Shown piece by piece: positions 21,583-31,586 of a stretch of DNA of 64,000 nucleotides; within the stretch, counting starts at the first letter, position 1; each line of letters opens with the position of its first letter. This stretch comes from Psychromonas sp. psych-6C06 (GTDB taxonomy: Bacteria; Pseudomonadota; Gammaproteobacteria; Enterobacterales; Psychromonadaceae): the NCBI RefSeq assembly GCF_002835465.1, contig NZ_PIZM01000002.1, forward strand, positions 672,398 through 736,397, written 5' to 3'. The position numbers and the translations under genes are program-made. The notes under the pieces were generated by a model. The model saw nothing but the letters and a program-made list of their open reading frames with translations, was not told the origin of the DNA and ran no database searches.

Positions 21583-22275
21583 ATGCACCTTCTACAACAT
21601 CGTAAACATGTTACTGAAAAAGACAATTTTTCTTATCTTCTTTTCAGCTTATTTTTTCTCTTACTTTCCAGTGCAATGGTTGACCAATTTTTTTCATCCT
21701 CTCTCATTGGGCAATCTTTAGTGATGGCTTTTACTGTCATCAGTATGTCGATTGGGGTATGGAGCTTACGCTCTAGTCGCTATGCATTTAATACTGCATT
21801 AGGGTTAGTTGCCGCAACCGCTTTAATTAGCGTCGTAGTCATTGGGCTAGACCGAGCTGACTTAGCCTTTATTCACCTACTGATCATGCTTTACTTTTTT
21901 ATAATGACACTGCGACTGGCAGCCCAACAAGCGTTGTTTTCAGGCCAAGTAACCATCAACAGCATCGTGGGCTCTATCTGTATATTCTTATTATTAGGTT
22001 TAATTTGGGTAATGCTATACCTGTTGCTGATTGAGTTTACGACTCCCTCATTTGTTGGACTTGAGACTGGACCTTGGCAACAAAACTTTCCCGACCTTAT
22101 CTACTTTAGTTTTGTAACATTAACCACTCTCGGTTTTGGTGATCTACTTCCTGTTGGCCCGCTTGCTCGATTTTTAGTTTATGTCGAAGCTATTGTCGGC
22201 GTCTTTTATATGGCAATTGTCGTTTCAAGTTTAGTGAGCGCAGGGATGAATAATAAGCAGGAAAAACACCATTAA
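21583..22275 (+). CDS. Potassium-channel-like two-pore-helix membrane protein
   Basis: 230 residues with about seven hydrophobic segments. The C-terminal pair flanks a pore loop, DLIYFSFVTLTTLGFGDLLP, typical of the Ion_trans_2 family; the filter reads TTLGFGD where classic potassium channels have TVGYGD. The gene has a good ribosome binding site (AGGA about six bases upstream) and is followed after two bases by a eukaryotic-type AdoMet decarboxylase gene, so the two are co-expressed. There is no cytosolic RCK domain. Potassium selectivity is inference from the filter. Confidence 0.82.
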   Translation: MHLLQHRKHVTEKDNFSYLLFSLFFLLLSSAMVDQFFSSSLIGQSLVMAFTVISMSIGVWSLRSSRYAFNTALGLVAATALISVVVIGLDRADLAFIHLLIMLYFFIMTLRLAAQQALFSGQVTINSIVGSICIFLLLGLIWVMLYLLLIEFTTPSFVGLETGPWQQNFPDLIYFSFVTLTTLGFGDLLPVGPLARFLVYVEAIVGVFYMAIVVSSLVSAGMNNKQEKHH

Positions 22276-22277
22276 TC

Positions 22278-23120
22278 ATGTTTTATGAAGGCAGTGAAAA
22301 ACGTTTAGAGATCACCACAACATTAAACCTCCTTAATTTTGAACCTAGCTTTTGGCATTCATTAGTTGAGCAAGCGGGAGCCTATATTATTTCCGAAATT
22401 AAAAATGAGCAGTTAACTGCCTTTTTACTTTCAGAGTCGAGTTTATTCGTGTGGAAGCATAAACTGTTGTTGATCACCTGTGGCGAAACACATTTACTAC
22501 AAGCAGCTCTTTTTTTTCAAAAAAAGGTCGCACGTAAAGATATTACTTCGTTACTTTTCCAACGACATCAAGGCACCTACCCGGAACGCCAGAAAAGCAG
22601 TTTTCAACAAGATAGTTTAAAGTTACAACAACACCTTAATGGTGACAGTCGCCATTGGCGAGAAAACTATTGTGGCGATATTTTCCTATTTGGTAACAAT
22701 CAGCATCATATAGCAACTAAAAATATACTCATGTTGCATCAGCTTACAGGGGATTTTTTTGAGCAATTACGGAGTGGGAAAATTACAAAAGAAAAAATTA
22801 TTGAACAGCTAAAGCTTAATGAATATTTTAGTGAGTTTAATGTTGATCATTACTGCTTTGAACCCAAAGGCTATTCACTAAATGCGATATCAGGAGAAGA
22901 TTATTTTACGTTGCATATCACACCAGAAAAGCTCAGCAGTTATATCAGCTTTGAATCGAGTTTAAGCACTGCAAAAACAAGTGCTTTTCATCGATTACTG
23001 CTATCACTATGTCAACCTAAACGCAGTTATTTAATGACCTTCACTCCTACAAAGGAGTCGCTTTCTATCCAAACGCATGCGCTCAATAGTAAAGCAACCC
23101 AAACAATAACAAGCTCTTAA
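22278..23120 (+). CDS. S-adenosylmethionine decarboxylase, eukaryotic type
   Basis: 280 residues (human enzyme 334 aa). It aligns along its length with eukaryotic AdoMet decarboxylase, not with bacterial SpeD. Substrate-site glutamates Glu4 and Glu7 lie in FYEGSEKRLEI; the self-cleavage site is Glu53-Ser54 in LLSESSLFV, which would give the pyruvoyl group; Cys68 in LITCGE matches human Cys82; Ser200 (KGYSLNAI) and His213 (TLHITPE) match the processing residues Ser229 and His243. It makes decarboxylated AdoMet for spermidine synthesis. No spermidine synthase is adjacent. It is coupled to the channel gene upstream. Confidence 0.88.
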   Translation: MFYEGSEKRLEITTTLNLLNFEPSFWHSLVEQAGAYIISEIKNEQLTAFLLSESSLFVWKHKLLLITCGETHLLQAALFFQKKVARKDITSLLFQRHQGTYPERQKSSFQQDSLKLQQHLNGDSRHWRENYCGDIFLFGNNQHHIATKNILMLHQLTGDFFEQLRSGKITKEKIIEQLKLNEYFSEFNVDHYCFEPKGYSLNAISGEDYFTLHITPEKLSSYISFESSLSTAKTSAFHRLLLSLCQPKRSYLMTFTPTKESLSIQTHALNSKATQTITSS

Positions 23121-23123
23121 TGG

Positions 23124-23804
23124 CTAAGGCTTTAATATAAATACGGTACTAACGCGATCATTCAAAGTAATGTTTTTAGGCTTCACCGAAATGGCATCAC
23201 TTTCTATTGCAAGAGAGCGCATATAAACAGGTTGAACATCGTTACTCTGATAGTTAATAGAATAGACTTTACCCAAGTCAGCCTCATAAAGTTGCGCCAT
23301 ATCTTCGGCTTTTTGCTTGCTGTCCAATACCGCCATTTGGCGCACTTTTTGTTGCCATTGCGACGGATTTTGTAGGCCATACTGCAACGGTGAAATAGAC
23401 TCTACCTGTGCAGTCAGTAACACATCTAAAAATTGGTTAACTTTACTAATATCAGTTAAACGATAACTTAACTCATGCGTGACTCGGACACCTAGCAAGT
23501 TTCGTTTCTTATTAGTGTAATCATATTCAGGGCGACTTGCTTGACTAACACTTTTAATCAAATCACTACTAAATCCCGCATTTTTTAAACGACTTATTAC
23601 TGTCGCTACTTGTGCATCGACCTGTTTCTTGGCTACTTCTCCTTGATGGTTCAAGGCATTTGGTTGAAAGTTAATAATCACTTGATCAGCATCGACAGCT
23701 AATGAAGCCGAACCAGTGACTGAAATATAGGGTTCATCTGGAAATGAGTCCGCCAAGCTGGCAAATGAAAGACACGATAACAACAGTAATAATGAATAAC
23801 GCAT
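23124..23804 (-). CDS. SIMPL domain (DUF541) periplasmic protein
   Basis: 226 residues with a signal peptide (MRYSLLLLLSCLSFASLADS). The mature part starts PYISVTGSASLAVDADQVIINF and contains VRVTHELSYRL and YGLQNPSQWQQKVRQMAVLDSKQKAEDMA, the SIMPL (DUF541) layout of E. coli YggE and similar proteins. Function is not established; some members are linked to oxidative-stress tolerance. It converges with the decarboxylase gene, three bases apart. Confidence 0.85.
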   Translation of the reverse strand: MRYSLLLLLSCLSFASLADSFPDEPYISVTGSASLAVDADQVIINFQPNALNHQGEVAKKQVDAQVATVISRLKNAGFSSDLIKSVSQASRPEYDYTNKKRNLLGVRVTHELSYRLTDISKVNQFLDVLLTAQVESISPLQYGLQNPSQWQQKVRQMAVLDSKQKAEDMAQLYEADLGKVYSINYQSNDVQPVYMRSLAIESDAISVKPKNITLNDRVSTVFILKP

Positions 23805-27091: not shown

Positions 27092-29338
27092 ATGACGCTA
27101 TCGCATAAAAAAACTTCTCTATTTTTCTATATTATCGCTTTAGGTGGTTTTCTTATTCTGCTTATATCTGGCTACCTAAAGTTCACTGAATTAGAGTACA
27201 AATTACAAGCTGAGCAACGTTACGTTACCAAACTATTTGAATCTCATGTCTCATCAGCACTGTTTCAATTTGAATCAATGCTCGACCTTATTAGTTATGA
27301 ATCAACGCTACAGCATAATTTGAATGTCGAAGTGATTGATAACATTCTATCAAGAACGCCGTTATTAATTGGCTTTGCACTTTTTAATCCTGATGGTGAA
27401 GTACGGTCAATTAGTAGTAGCTTGCAAAACGTTCGCTTACCTAACCTGCTCACAGATGAAAAAACAAAAAAATGGTTTAAACATGCACTAACACAAGATC
27501 AGATGACTATTGGCAACCCTTATATTTTGCAACCGCTTAATAAATGGGTGGTCCCAATTAGAAAACGTGTCGTGGATAAACAAGGGAATGTCGTTGCGGT
27601 TATTACATCAGGCTTAGACCTACAAACGTTATCACAACAATGGAATGATGGAAGCGATGGGCGACGAGTGTTTCAGGCGACGCTTGATAATGACTATTAT
27701 CGAATATTACGCACCAATGTGGCACTAAATAAATATGAATCAACCTATTCAAGCCCAATTTCTTCTGACGTGATCCGTTTAATTGAAGAGCAACTTGCAG
27801 AGCAGAAAATATCTTTGCAGTCACTTCGAGATTCAGGTCAATCGGTACAACTAAAGCCCTCCTCTCAACAAAGTGAATATTTTACGATACTTTATAATCC
27901 TAAACATCAAATCTGGATAAACGCATCAGAATCAAGCTTTTCTTTGCAAAAGAAATTGATACCTCCCTTGCTCGCTTATAGCACTTTTTATCTACTTTTT
28001 TTAGTGGCTTCTTTCTTTATTTTCCGTTGGGTTGCACGTCTGGAAAAAAGTAAACTTGCAGAGCTGACTTATCGTGCTGAACGCGATCTGTTAACCGGCC
28101 TATATAACCGCACCATTTTAAAAAGCAAAAAGCTAAAGTTTCATCGGAGTAATATCCCTTTTTCTTTGCTCTATATTGATCTCGATAACTTCAAGACTAT
28201 CAATGATAGCTACGGTTATAGCTACGGTGATGGTATTTTAATTGAAGTAAGCAAACGCCTAACAAGCTCACTAGAGCGAGTAGAAGGGACGGCAATCCGC
28301 TTAAGCGCTGATGAGTTTATTGTACTTATTGCGAGCATAGATAAAGATATCGTTGAAGAGTTTTGTCGTGAGTTATTAAGCTGCATAAATACCCCTTATA
28401 TCGTTAACAATAATGACTTCAAAATAAGTGCATCAATCGGCATTGCGCAAAGCCCGAACAATGCAACCGAGATTGAGACATTAATCAGTTATGCCAATAA
28501 CAGCATGCTAATCGCTAAAAAGTCGAAAAATAATTTCATCTTTTTCTCTGAGCAGATTCACCGACAACTGATTAAAAATATTGAGATCGAGCAAGCATTA
28601 AAATCTGCCGTAGATAAGAATGAAATAAGCCTCGTTTATCAGCCACAAATGAACAATAAAGGTGAATTATGTGGCGTTGAAGCCTTAGTACGTTGGAACA
28701 ATGAGGGGTTAGGCTTCATTCCTCCCGATCAGTTCATTCCGATCGCAGAGGAGACAGGCATAATGCCAGCTTTAGGCGCTTATATCATGAATCAAGCGAT
28801 GTTAGAAATCTCAGCCTTACAATACAAAAAAAGAAAATCATTTCAGCTATCAATCAACGTATCTGCTCGACAGTTTGTACAGCTTAACTTTTTTGAAAGT
28901 TTAATTAATTGCTTGGCACTCCATAAATCGCCGTACATGAAAATCACCATTGAGATTACGGAAAGCTTGTTCATCGAAAATATTGAACGTTTATTGCCTA
29001 TTTTCAAAAAAATGAAAGAGGAAAATATCTCTCTTTCTTTAGATGACTTTGGCACAGGCTACTCTTCATTAAGTATGCTACGGAATGTCCCTATCGATGA
29101 ACTTAAAATAGACAAAAGTTTTGTCGATGACATTGCTCATGATAAAAATGATAGGGCGATGGTGGCAAGTATCATTACCATGGGAAAAAATTTAGGCATG
29201 TCAGTCTTAGCTGAAGGTGTTGAAAATAAGCAACAATTGGCTATTTTACAAACTGCAGGGTGTGACATCTACCAAGGATATTATTTCTCTAAACCGTTAA
29301 ACTTAATCGACTTGGAAAGTTTGATTGATACTCTTTAA
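27092..29338 (+). CDS. Membrane GGDEF-EAL protein with degenerate GGDEF (first of tandem pair)
   Basis: 748 residues: TM1 about 11-31, a periplasmic sensor domain of about 255 residues (Cache-like from its length and position), TM2 about 290-312, GGDEF domain about 325-480, EAL domain about 500-745. The GGDEF signature is SADEF at 405-409, so cyclase activity is unlikely, although the DIDNFK-type segment ([12 protein letters not shown]) remains. The EAL site is intact: Glu530 in EALVRW, DDFGTGYSSL, KIDKSF and AEGVE, so cyclic-di-GMP phosphodiesterase activity is expected. The ribosome binding site is weak. A paralogue follows after 28 bases. Confidence 0.87.
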   Translation: MTLSHKKTSLFFYIIALGGFLILLISGYLKFTELEYKLQAEQRYVTKLFESHVSSALFQFESMLDLISYESTLQHNLNVEVIDNILSRTPLLIGFALFNPDGEVRSISSSLQNVRLPNLLTDEKTKKWFKHALTQDQMTIGNPYILQPLNKWVVPIRKRVVDKQGNVVAVITSGLDLQTLSQQWNDGSDGRRVFQATLDNDYYRILRTNVALNKYESTYSSPISSDVIRLIEEQLAEQKISLQSLRDSGQSVQLKPSSQQSEYFTILYNPKHQIWINASESSFSLQKKLIPPLLAYSTFYLLFLVASFFIFRWVARLEKSKLAELTYRAERDLLTGLYNRTILKSKKLKFHRSNIPFSLLYIDLDNFKTINDSYGYSYGDGILIEVSKRLTSSLERVEGTAIRLSADEFIVLIASIDKDIVEEFCRELLSCINTPYIVNNNDFKISASIGIAQSPNNATEIETLISYANNSMLIAKKSKNNFIFFSEQIHRQLIKNIEIEQALKSAVDKNEISLVYQPQMNNKGELCGVEALVRWNNEGLGFIPPDQFIPIAEETGIMPALGAYIMNQAMLEISALQYKKRKSFQLSINVSARQFVQLNFFESLINCLALHKSPYMKITIEITESLFIENIERLLPIFKKMKEENISLSLDDFGTGYSSLSMLRNVPIDELKIDKSFVDDIAHDKNDRAMVASIITMGKNLGMSVLAEGVENKQQLAILQTAGCDIYQGYYFSKPLNLIDLESLIDTL

Positions 29339-29366: not shown

Positions 29367-31586
29367 ATGCGCACCCTAAATAAAAATATTTGGGCTCTTT
29401 TTTATCTCATACTTATTATAGCCACCGTGCTATTGTGTACGGCTGTTTATAATAAACATAATGAGATATTAAATGAGACTAAAGGCGATCAGCTTTACCT
29501 CAGCAATGTGTTCTATAACCACCTAGATTCTCTGTTTACACAACAGGAAGTAATTCAAAACTTAATCGCGAGTAAATACGTCAAATTGAGTAATTTTGAT
29601 AGTCATATTCTTGATGTTGCTCTGGAACAGAATATCTACTCTGCAGGAATATGGATTTTCTCTAAACAGGGAGATCTACTTGTCACCAGTTCTAATTTAT
29701 CCGAACACCCCATAACCAACCTGCTTAGCCACAGCAACACTACCTCTTGGTTCACAGAAACACTCAACAGCTCTCAAATGGTCCTCGGTCGCCCCTATTT
29801 TTTAGCGAGTTTACAACGTTGGATCTTACCGTTACGTAAAAAAATAGTCGACAATAAAGGCAACACCATTGCGGTTATCTCTACGGGCCTAGATTTGGCC
29901 GTCTTACAAAGTGAATGGCGAGAAAAAAATCCACACAATATTGAGGCAACATTAAGTAACGGCAATTATCGAATATTACGTAACAATTTATCAGTTAATC
30001 AATTTGAACAGTTTTATAATAACAGTGCCCCGCAAAATAACCTGATAAAAAAACATTACCTCAGTCAACCAAGCCAAACACTTTTTCAACAAAATGCGAG
30101 TAAGAAGACACCACAAAAACAGTTATATACCTTAGCCTATAACAAAAATTATCGTTTTTGGGTTTATGCTTCAATCCCTTATCAACAGGTTACTGCTCGC
30201 CTTTACTCACACTCTTTTTTCTATACTATTTTTTATCTCTTGCTAATCAGCAGTGGTTTTATGCTGTTTAGATGGATAGTAAAGGTAGAAAATTCAAAAA
30301 TTGATGAGCTTACCTATAAAACAGAGCATGATGCATTAACCGGACTTCCAAACCGCACCATTTTAAAGCGTCACTTTAAAACTTTACAAACACCTAATGA
30401 AACTCCTTTTGCATTGCTGTACATCGATCTGGATAACTTTAAGCATATCAATGACACTTTTGGTCATAGTTATGGCGACACTATTTTAATTGAGGCAAGT
30501 AAGCGAATAACAAAAAGCCTTGCGCTTCATAGTGGCATGGTTGCACGCTACAGTAGTGATGAGTTCGTGGTTTTTTTAGAAACAGCTAATCGAGAGGTGA
30601 TAAGTAACTATGCCAAGCATTTATTAAAAAGTATCTCCCTGCCTTACTTAATCGGTCAAAATGCTTTTCGCATTAGCTCTTCGATTGGTATTGCACGCTT
30701 TCCGGAGGATGCTTCACATATTGAAACGCTATTAAGCTATGCCGATAACAGTATGACCGTTGCCAAAAAGAAGCGGAATCAGTATCTATTTTTCTCTAAA
30801 CAAGTGCATCATCAGCTAATGCGTAATATTGAAATAGAACAAGCACTCCATCATGCTATTGAGAACGATGAAATAAGCTTGGTATATCAGCCACAAATCG
30901 ATCGCAATGATAAGCTTTTTGGCGTAGAAGCATTGGTTCGTTGGCACAGTGCTAAACTCGGTGTTATTCCGCCAGACCAATTTATCCCCATTGCTGAAGA
31001 TACAGGTTTAATGCCTAAACTCGGTTTATATATCATGCATAAAGCGATGCTTGAGATAAACAATTTGCAGCGACAAAACAACCTTAACTTTAAATTAGCT
31101 ATCAATGTTTCGGTGCGTCAGTTTATTCAGATAGATTTTATCGAAAAACTGATGGATGCCTGTAAAAGCTTTACCAGTGGACAATTAGATATCACTATTG
31201 AGATAACAGAAAGCTTGTTTATTGAAAGTATTGACAGTTTATTGCCACTATTTTACAAGATGAAAGGGAATCATATTAGCCTCTCTTTAGATGATTTTGG
31301 GACAGGCTACTCTTCTTTAAGTCTGTTGCGCAAAATCCCCATTGATGAACTAAAAATAGATAAAAGCTTTGTCGATAATATTGCCTTTGACAAACATGAT
31401 CGTGCGATGGTCAATAGCATTATTAGCATGGGTAAAAACTTAGGTATGCAAGTACTGGCAGAGGGTGTTGAGAGCAAGCAACAGGCGGATATTTTATCGC
31501 AAGCAGGTTGCGATATTTATCAAGGATATTACTTCTCTCAGCCCCTCACGCTCACCGATCTGATCAGCTTTGCTAAACAGCACTGA
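29367..31586 (+). CDS. Membrane GGDEF-EAL protein with degenerate GGDEF (second of tandem pair)
   Basis: 739 residues with the same layout as its upstream neighbour: TM1 about 8-28, periplasmic sensor, TM2 near 282-302, GGDEF, EAL. Similarity is strong in the cytosolic half ([34 protein letters not shown]) and weaker in the sensor, as expected of a tandem duplication that diverged in input. The GGDEF signature is SSDEF at 396-400; the EAL motif (Glu521) and the other phosphodiesterase motifs are intact. Its last codons overlap metR, on the other strand, by 14 bases. Confidence 0.87.
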   Translation: MRTLNKNIWALFYLILIIATVLLCTAVYNKHNEILNETKGDQLYLSNVFYNHLDSLFTQQEVIQNLIASKYVKLSNFDSHILDVALEQNIYSAGIWIFSKQGDLLVTSSNLSEHPITNLLSHSNTTSWFTETLNSSQMVLGRPYFLASLQRWILPLRKKIVDNKGNTIAVISTGLDLAVLQSEWREKNPHNIEATLSNGNYRILRNNLSVNQFEQFYNNSAPQNNLIKKHYLSQPSQTLFQQNASKKTPQKQLYTLAYNKNYRFWVYASIPYQQVTARLYSHSFFYTIFYLLLISSGFMLFRWIVKVENSKIDELTYKTEHDALTGLPNRTILKRHFKTLQTPNETPFALLYIDLDNFKHINDTFGHSYGDTILIEASKRITKSLALHSGMVARYSSDEFVVFLETANREVISNYAKHLLKSISLPYLIGQNAFRISSSIGIARFPEDASHIETLLSYADNSMTVAKKKRNQYLFFSKQVHHQLMRNIEIEQALHHAIENDEISLVYQPQIDRNDKLFGVEALVRWHSAKLGVIPPDQFIPIAEDTGLMPKLGLYIMHKAMLEINNLQRQNNLNFKLAINVSVRQFIQIDFIEKLMDACKSFTSGQLDITIEITESLFIESIDSLLPLFYKMKGNHISLSLDDFGTGYSSLSLLRKIPIDELKIDKSFVDNIAFDKHDRAMVNSIISMGKNLGMQVLAEGVESKQQADILSQAGCDIYQGYYFSQPLTLTDLISFAKQH

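Follow-up and report, generated by a model that had tools for sequence, protein, structure and literature searches.

A class 2 S-adenosylmethionine decarboxylase of Psychromonas with a membrane-bound aminopropyltransferase as its most likely partner

We describe a class 2 (eukaryotic-type) S-adenosylmethionine (AdoMet) decarboxylase encoded by Psychromonas sp. psych-6C06 within a window of 64,000 nucleotides, by which we mean the whole stretch of DNA analysed here (contig NZ_PIZM01000002.1, positions 672,398 to 736,397). Animals and plants rely on enzymes of this type to provide one of the building blocks of polyamines. This marine bacterium, however, seems to obtain its polyamines by a different route, so that a membrane-bound partner is the most likely user of the enzyme's product. 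In the account that we favor, and consider probable, it would cleave itself and supply decarboxylated AdoMet (dcAdoMet) to a membrane fusion protein outside the main synthesis of triamines, having lost part of its putrescine site while keeping catalysis. Family membership, conserved residues, predicted fold, gene inventory, co-occurrence and motif loss, all read from sequence, form the basis of this account.

The decarboxylase and its predicted fold

The features of the window that are discussed below are the following:

21583..22275, + strand: K+ channel-like gene (Ion_trans_2; PF07885, 1.7e-14), ending 2 nt before the decarboxylase start
22278..23120, + strand: class 2 AdoMet decarboxylase proenzyme, ATG start, 280 aa, PF01536 match
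22437..22439, + strand: codon of Ser54, the predicted pyruvoyl-forming serine (human S68; LSESS aligned to human, invariant in 36/36 sequences)
22479..22481, + strand: codon of Cys68 (human C82, catalytic; by alignment, invariant in 36/36)
22713..22727, + strand: Ala146-x-Lys148-x-Ile150, where human AdoMetDC has the putrescine-site motif D174-x-T176-x-E178, which is not conserved (by alignment)
22875..22877, + strand: codon of Ser200 (human S229, processing; by alignment, invariant in 36/36)
22914..22916, + strand: codon of His213 (human H243, processing; by alignment, invariant in 36/36)

The open reading frame matches the PF01536 profile with an E-value of 9.6e-42 and 143.7 bits (cut-off 22.2), over residues 2-269 and profile positions 3-311 of 343. 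Against the TIGR00535 equivalog model it scores 98.3 bits, below the cut-off of 233.15. Its best solved relative by sequence is human AdoMet decarboxylase (AdoMetDC; PDB 1jl0, 1msv), to which it is 25% identical in the alignment. Human E8, E11, K12, E15, S66-E67-S68-S69, C82, R114, F223, S229, H243, E247 and E256 are all retained, so that the cleavage motif and the catalytic and processing residues are shared. The two enzymes differ in the C-terminus, which is shorter in the window protein, in the replacement of D174, T176 and E178, and in the exchange of F7 for Tyr, K80 for Ile, S113 for Gln and C226 for Lys.

In the numbering of the window protein, the pyruvoyl serine (S54), the catalytic cysteine (C68), the processing serine and histidine (S200, H213) and the substrate glutamates (E4, E7, E217) are in place. 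Across 36 aligned class 2 sequences, the window's included, E4, E7, K8, L51-F57, C68, F194, S200 and H213 are invariant; at the position of human E247, 22 of the 36 have Gln. Eight catalytic and processing positions are intact in every one of the 51 class 2 proteins scored. The AlphaFold2 model of the decarboxylase (pLDDT 88.0, pTM 0.88) has human AdoMetDC as its top PDB fold matches, with a TM score of 0.80 to 1jl0.

The profile match, the residues and the predicted fold are not a chance resemblance, and at the level of sequence and model the assignment to class 2 is confirmed. An earlier note, made from the letters of the window, had proposed this family from the SESS motif, the catalytic Cys, the processing residues and the substrate Glu, and the profile search and the human alignment bear it out. 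Self-cleavage would be expected between Glu53 and Ser54, and the reaction expected of the enzyme is the same as that of SpeD (class 1, PF02675). The window has a GC content of 38%, and the gene one of 36%.

Genes around the decarboxylase

The channel-like gene and the decarboxylase gene may be co-transcribed. The same pair occurs in 5 of the 12 loci of the genus that have upstream sequence, with a spacing of -1 to 6 nt; the gene directly upstream in the others encodes a PLD-domain protein (five loci, one of them scanned) or something else (two). Three further loci of the genus end at the decarboxylase gene and so lack upstream sequence. The K+ channel was therefore rejected as a fixed partner. 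No spermidine synthase lies among the neighbors examined, in agreement with the earlier note; the sole match of that kind in the genome lies at a distance of roughly 0.5 Mb.

On the other side, a SIMPL-domain (DUF541) gene at 23124-23804 stands tail to tail with the decarboxylase gene in 15 of 15 loci of the genus. Beyond it come fba and pgk (as read) in 14 of the 15, with one extra gene between in three; the stretch of the remaining locus (L038) ends first. Further along the window, 27092-29338 and 29367-31586 encode a tandem pair of long proteins, similar to each other, whose translations by eye resemble GGDEF-EAL signalling proteins.

Distribution and phylogeny

Class 2 AdoMetDC is a normal gene of its bacterial group. 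PF01536 is present in 60 of the 295 genomes sampled from the order, in 10 of 99 genera, and in 22 of 23 Psychromonas genomes. Within the family, which comprises one genus in this search, the gene occurs in 22 of 24 genomes, which led us to reject a lone recent transfer into this genome. The two genomes without it are 79% and 51% complete, and it is found in all 21 family genomes whose completeness reaches 90% and whose contamination does not exceed 5%.

The earlier note had presented a class 2 enzyme as a surprise in a group that normally carries SpeD. This did not stand: SpeD exceeds its cut-off in 66 of the 295 genomes, so that class 2 is about as common, the genus carries it consistently, and class 2 enzymes of bacteria had been published before. 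The literature states that some bacteria encode class 2 AdoMetDC, with Li et al. 2019 (Biochem J 476:2579) cited for it, and that the bacterial genes derive from eukaryotes (PMC10407285), and gives a count of 68 bacterial PF01536 sequences (PMC5201418). Class 2 and above-cut-off SpeD occur together in none of the 295 genomes, against 13.4 expected with shared descent uncorrected. Named relatives, among the best 80 of 372 loci, come from Shewanella, Endozoicomonas, Ferrimonas, Marinomonas, Grimontia and others.

In the tree, the sequences of the genus form a single clade (100/99) on a long stem, beside family f12 (97/99) and apart from the others. A quick tree of 120 rows did not recover the genus and f12 as one clade, and long branches make this grouping unsure. 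The placement of the human sequence is also unsure, with one eukaryotic sequence in the tree and long branches for human, L052, L054, L050, L030 and L028.

PF02675 weakly matches 11 of the 36 class 2 proteins (E up to 1, best 8.9e-5), and the sub-cut-off PF02675 matches in two class 2 genomes, G176 and G237, both fall within the class 2 gene. Such matches would fit an origin of class 2 from two SpeD halves. The weak match at G237:C1:2355733-2355918 lies in the C-terminal half of the class 2 protein.

Polyamine genes of the genome

The profile search of the genome found no PF02675 match, and hence no SpeD, and no stand-alone SpeE, the sole Spermine_synth match being a membrane-domain fusion; the presence of either enzyme elsewhere in the genome was thus rejected. 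Two sets of genes point to another way of making triamines:

Set 1: DABA aminotransferase (TIGR00709, 533 bits, cut-off 402)
Set 1: DABA decarboxylase-like protein (389.5 bits, below the cut-off of 900)
Set 1: carboxynorspermidine synthase (849 bits, cut-off 800)
Set 1: carboxynorspermidine decarboxylase, NspC (480.5 bits, cut-off 409)
Set 2: speA, with a carboxynorspermidine-synthase-like protein (418 bits, below the cut-off of 800) and a decarboxylase (498 bits, the second NspC homologue above the cut-off of 409)

The genome therefore appears to have the carboxynorspermidine/carboxyspermidine route, with two pathway proteins scoring under the model cut-offs. The check for speD, speE and a carboxyspermidine pathway that the earlier note had proposed thus came out with the first absent, the second absent as a stand-alone gene and the third present. 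NspC is above the cut-off in 22 of the 23 genomes of the genus and in 4 of 4 of f12; in the 23rd Psychromonas genome (G266) it is split in two pieces. According to PMC11999265, Psychromonas marina has DABA aminotransferase, DABA decarboxylase and CASDH/CASDC homologues, and the spermidine output of the CASDH/CASDC pairs varied at most two-fold.

The membrane-domain fusion and its co-occurrence with the decarboxylase

The only aminopropyltransferase found in the genome lies on the same contig as the decarboxylase:

G000:C2:176531-178240, minus strand: helical membrane domain fused to a spermidine-synthase-like domain, in a 577-codon frame, 569 aa by the called start

PF01564 matches residues 308-502 of the fusion, which retains the motifs QFSSLDEHIYH, GGGDG and DLPDP, as in spermidine synthases. 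Its C-terminal part was modelled like the spermidine synthases 1uir and 3o4f, and its N-terminal helical part less well (pLDDT mostly 40-88 per block). A DUF350 gene adjoins it, and the protein encoded by the next gene of the cluster has a lipobox as judged by eye. Class 2 enzymes from bacteria are reportedly active, and fusions of a membrane transporter with a spermidine synthase-like domain are said to be associated with DUF350, to fail to complement a speE mutant and to occur in species where spermidine is absent. With its class 2 enzyme, a fusion of this type beside DUF350 and no stand-alone SpeE, the genome is of the kind reportedly described by Li et al. 2019.

An operon of PspA, a 7TM-spermidine-synthase fusion, DUF350 and a lipoprotein is described in PMC11237479. 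The fusion, DUF350 and the lipoprotein are shared with this genome, whereas PspA was not among the five proteins scanned at its fusion cluster. PspA and DUF2170 do stand beside the fusion in another genome (G005).

Since some 0.5 Mb separates the two genes, the pairing of the fusion with the decarboxylase rests on co-occurrence, with shared descent uncorrected. Of the 295 genomes sampled from the order, 78 carry a full-length fusion; G215, where the match is weak and partial, is not counted. An AdoMetDC accompanies it in 77 of them, class 2 in 54 and SpeD in 23, never both; only G275, whose completeness is 79%, lacks one. A strong Spermine_synth match is present in each of the 60 class 2 genomes. 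Stand-alone SpeE is missing from 44, every one of which carries the fusion, and NspC is above the cut-off in 25 of these. The other 16 have stand-alone SpeE, none has NspC above the cut-off, and 10 also carry the fusion, so that SpeE and the fusion can coexist as partners. Six of the 60 class 2 genomes lack the fusion, and each of them encodes a stand-alone SpeE.

A short SpeD, in frames of 106-108 aa (e.g. L060:7862-8185), is found at the end of the fusion gene in the 11 listed genomes of family f2, its match 954-979 bases from that of the fusion's membrane domain. This SpeD seems to stand in the role that class 2 appears to fill elsewhere. The gene order in G281 is speE, speA, class 2 and an arginase-family gene (taken for speB); its class 2 enzyme would serve plain spermidine synthesis, which suggests that two uses of class 2 exist. 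In the genome of Shewanella sp. KJ10-1, which contains L116, the aminopropyltransferase domain at G317:C1:3442121-3442703 is split in two pieces in short frames, so this fusion may be broken.

Decay of the putrescine-site motif

Human T176 is part of the putrescine site. D174 and E15 belong to it according to PMC5201418, and PDB titles list human E178Q and E256Q structures solved with and without putrescine and a D174N structure without it. The D174/T176/E178 triplet of a human-type, putrescine-activated AdoMetDC is A, K and I in the window protein, with E15 and E256 present.

We scored the motif in sequences from 51 of the 60 class 2 genomes of the order (15 of 22 from Psychromonas). The D-x-T-x-E motif is kept by all 16 class 2 proteins from SpeE genomes, by 5 of 16 from genomes without SpeE or NspC, by none of 15 from Psychromonas and by none of 4 from f12. 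The alignment of the motif is anchored in Psychromonas by a downstream hydrophobic-Met-x-His/Asn stretch and is less sure in f12. E256 is intact in 50 of the 51 proteins, the single failure being L022. All 36 aligned sequences, SpeE genomes included, carry other residues in place of K80 and S113.

A second set consisted of named loci, the best 80 of 372, of which 79 were scored (L094 is without sequence); the two sets share species. Seven repeats (L058, L059, L061, L062, L063, L065, L072), counted among contigs of named genomes when the first set was scored, were dropped afterwards. Among the 79, the motif is intact in 25 of 27 loci with speE nearby and in 24 of 52 without. Ten of those 24 intact loci have neither speE nor speA nearby, and all 10 genomes encode SpeE elsewhere (220.6-234.3 bits), as do those of L133 (motif intact) and L126 (motif broken). 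A frame at L057 was rejected as SpeE, as the synthase motifs are absent, and no count uses it. After this genome-wide check, the motif is intact in 36 of 39 named loci with SpeE and in 13 of 40 without (best 80 of 372). The 40 comprise 24 checked genome-wide, which include all 13 intact ones, and 16 checked in the local stretch only.

The quick tree combines both sets as 120 distinct rows. Of its 20 motif-broken clades, 17 fall in SpeE-less lineages and 3 in SpeE lineages. Every member of 10 of the 11 SpeE-less clades has a broken motif, and in the largest, 14 of 28 keep it intact. Given the three broken SpeE clades and this half-intact one, loss of SpeE is insufficient alone for the motif to break. 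The correlation of motif decay with SpeE absence, as seen in these sequences, is possibly new: in the open-licence literature searched, we did not find the putrescine-site pattern of bacterial class 2 enzymes in print.

Since E15 and E256 are kept, loss of putrescine control is a step that we infer, and since K80 and S113 are replaced in SpeE genomes too, SpeE-type class 2 enzymes may themselves not respond like the human one. A broader proposal is that gammaproteobacterial class 2 AdoMetDCs were rewired in genomes losing SpeE: catalysis would be kept, control by putrescine at D174/T176/E178 lost, and dcAdoMet supplied constitutively to a membrane aminopropyltransferase that modifies an envelope molecule instead of a free polyamine. 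We put this forward tentatively and think it somewhat less probable than its negation, as the same two observations weaken it.

Proposed role and alternatives

In the favored account, the decarboxylase would cut itself before Ser54, form a pyruvoyl group there and then decarboxylate AdoMet. The product would be consumed by the fusion, the sole aminopropyltransferase found in this genome, which is apparently encoded together with a DUF350 membrane protein and a putative lipoprotein. As triamines appear to come by the carboxynorspermidine/carboxyspermidine route, the acceptor of the fusion is probably not putrescine for bulk triamine. Freed from that job, the enzyme would have given up D174/T176/E178, a part of the putrescine site found in its relatives, and kept its catalytic residues. 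Cleavage, activity, partner use, acceptor and lost putrescine response are thus what we infer. The guess in the earlier note of another aminopropyl pathway or a distant partner gene fits well with the fusion elsewhere on the contig, if the two do work together.

The fusion might instead make tetraamines, adding an aminopropyl group from dcAdoMet to the norspermidine or spermidine of the carboxy route to give norspermine, spermine or thermospermine. The genome has the genes for triamine synthesis and the fusion motifs resemble those of spermidine synthase; moreover, P. marina accumulates spermine/thermospermine, and its CASDH/CASDC pair gave only a trace in E. coli, according to PMC11999265. 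However, 13 genomes of family f6 (Shewanella-type) carry the fusion and class 2 with neither SpeE nor NspC above the cut-off, and hence have no obvious home-made triamine acceptor, and the neighbors of the fusion (DUF350, lipoprotein and, in G005, PspA) point to the envelope. We regard tetraamine synthesis as unlikely. Still less probable is ordinary spermidine synthesis, with the fusion as a membrane-bound spermidine synthase that the decarboxylase serves as usual: the retained motifs and speA would suit it, but it would be redundant with the carboxyspermidine-type genes, the putrescine motif of the decarboxylase is not conserved, and such fusions reportedly fail to complement a speE deletion (Li 2019), in species reportedly devoid of spermidine.

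A switch of substrate, which would make the protein a pyruvoyl arginine or ornithine decarboxylase like some SpeD relatives, has a precedent in class 1b homologues (PMC10407285). We find it very improbable here, as human E8, E11, E67, C82, F223 and E247 are kept, a strong Spermine_synth match accompanies class 2 in all 60 genomes, and speA is already present in this one.

Implications

The decay of part of the putrescine site offers a cheap biochemical way to ask what a bacterial class 2 AdoMetDC does where putrescine is not turned into spermidine by its means. A genus that appears to make its triamines by another route offers a clean background for finding the product of the membrane aminopropyltransferase. 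The pair of decarboxylase and fusion might also account for the tetraamine that Psychromonas marina is reported to accumulate.
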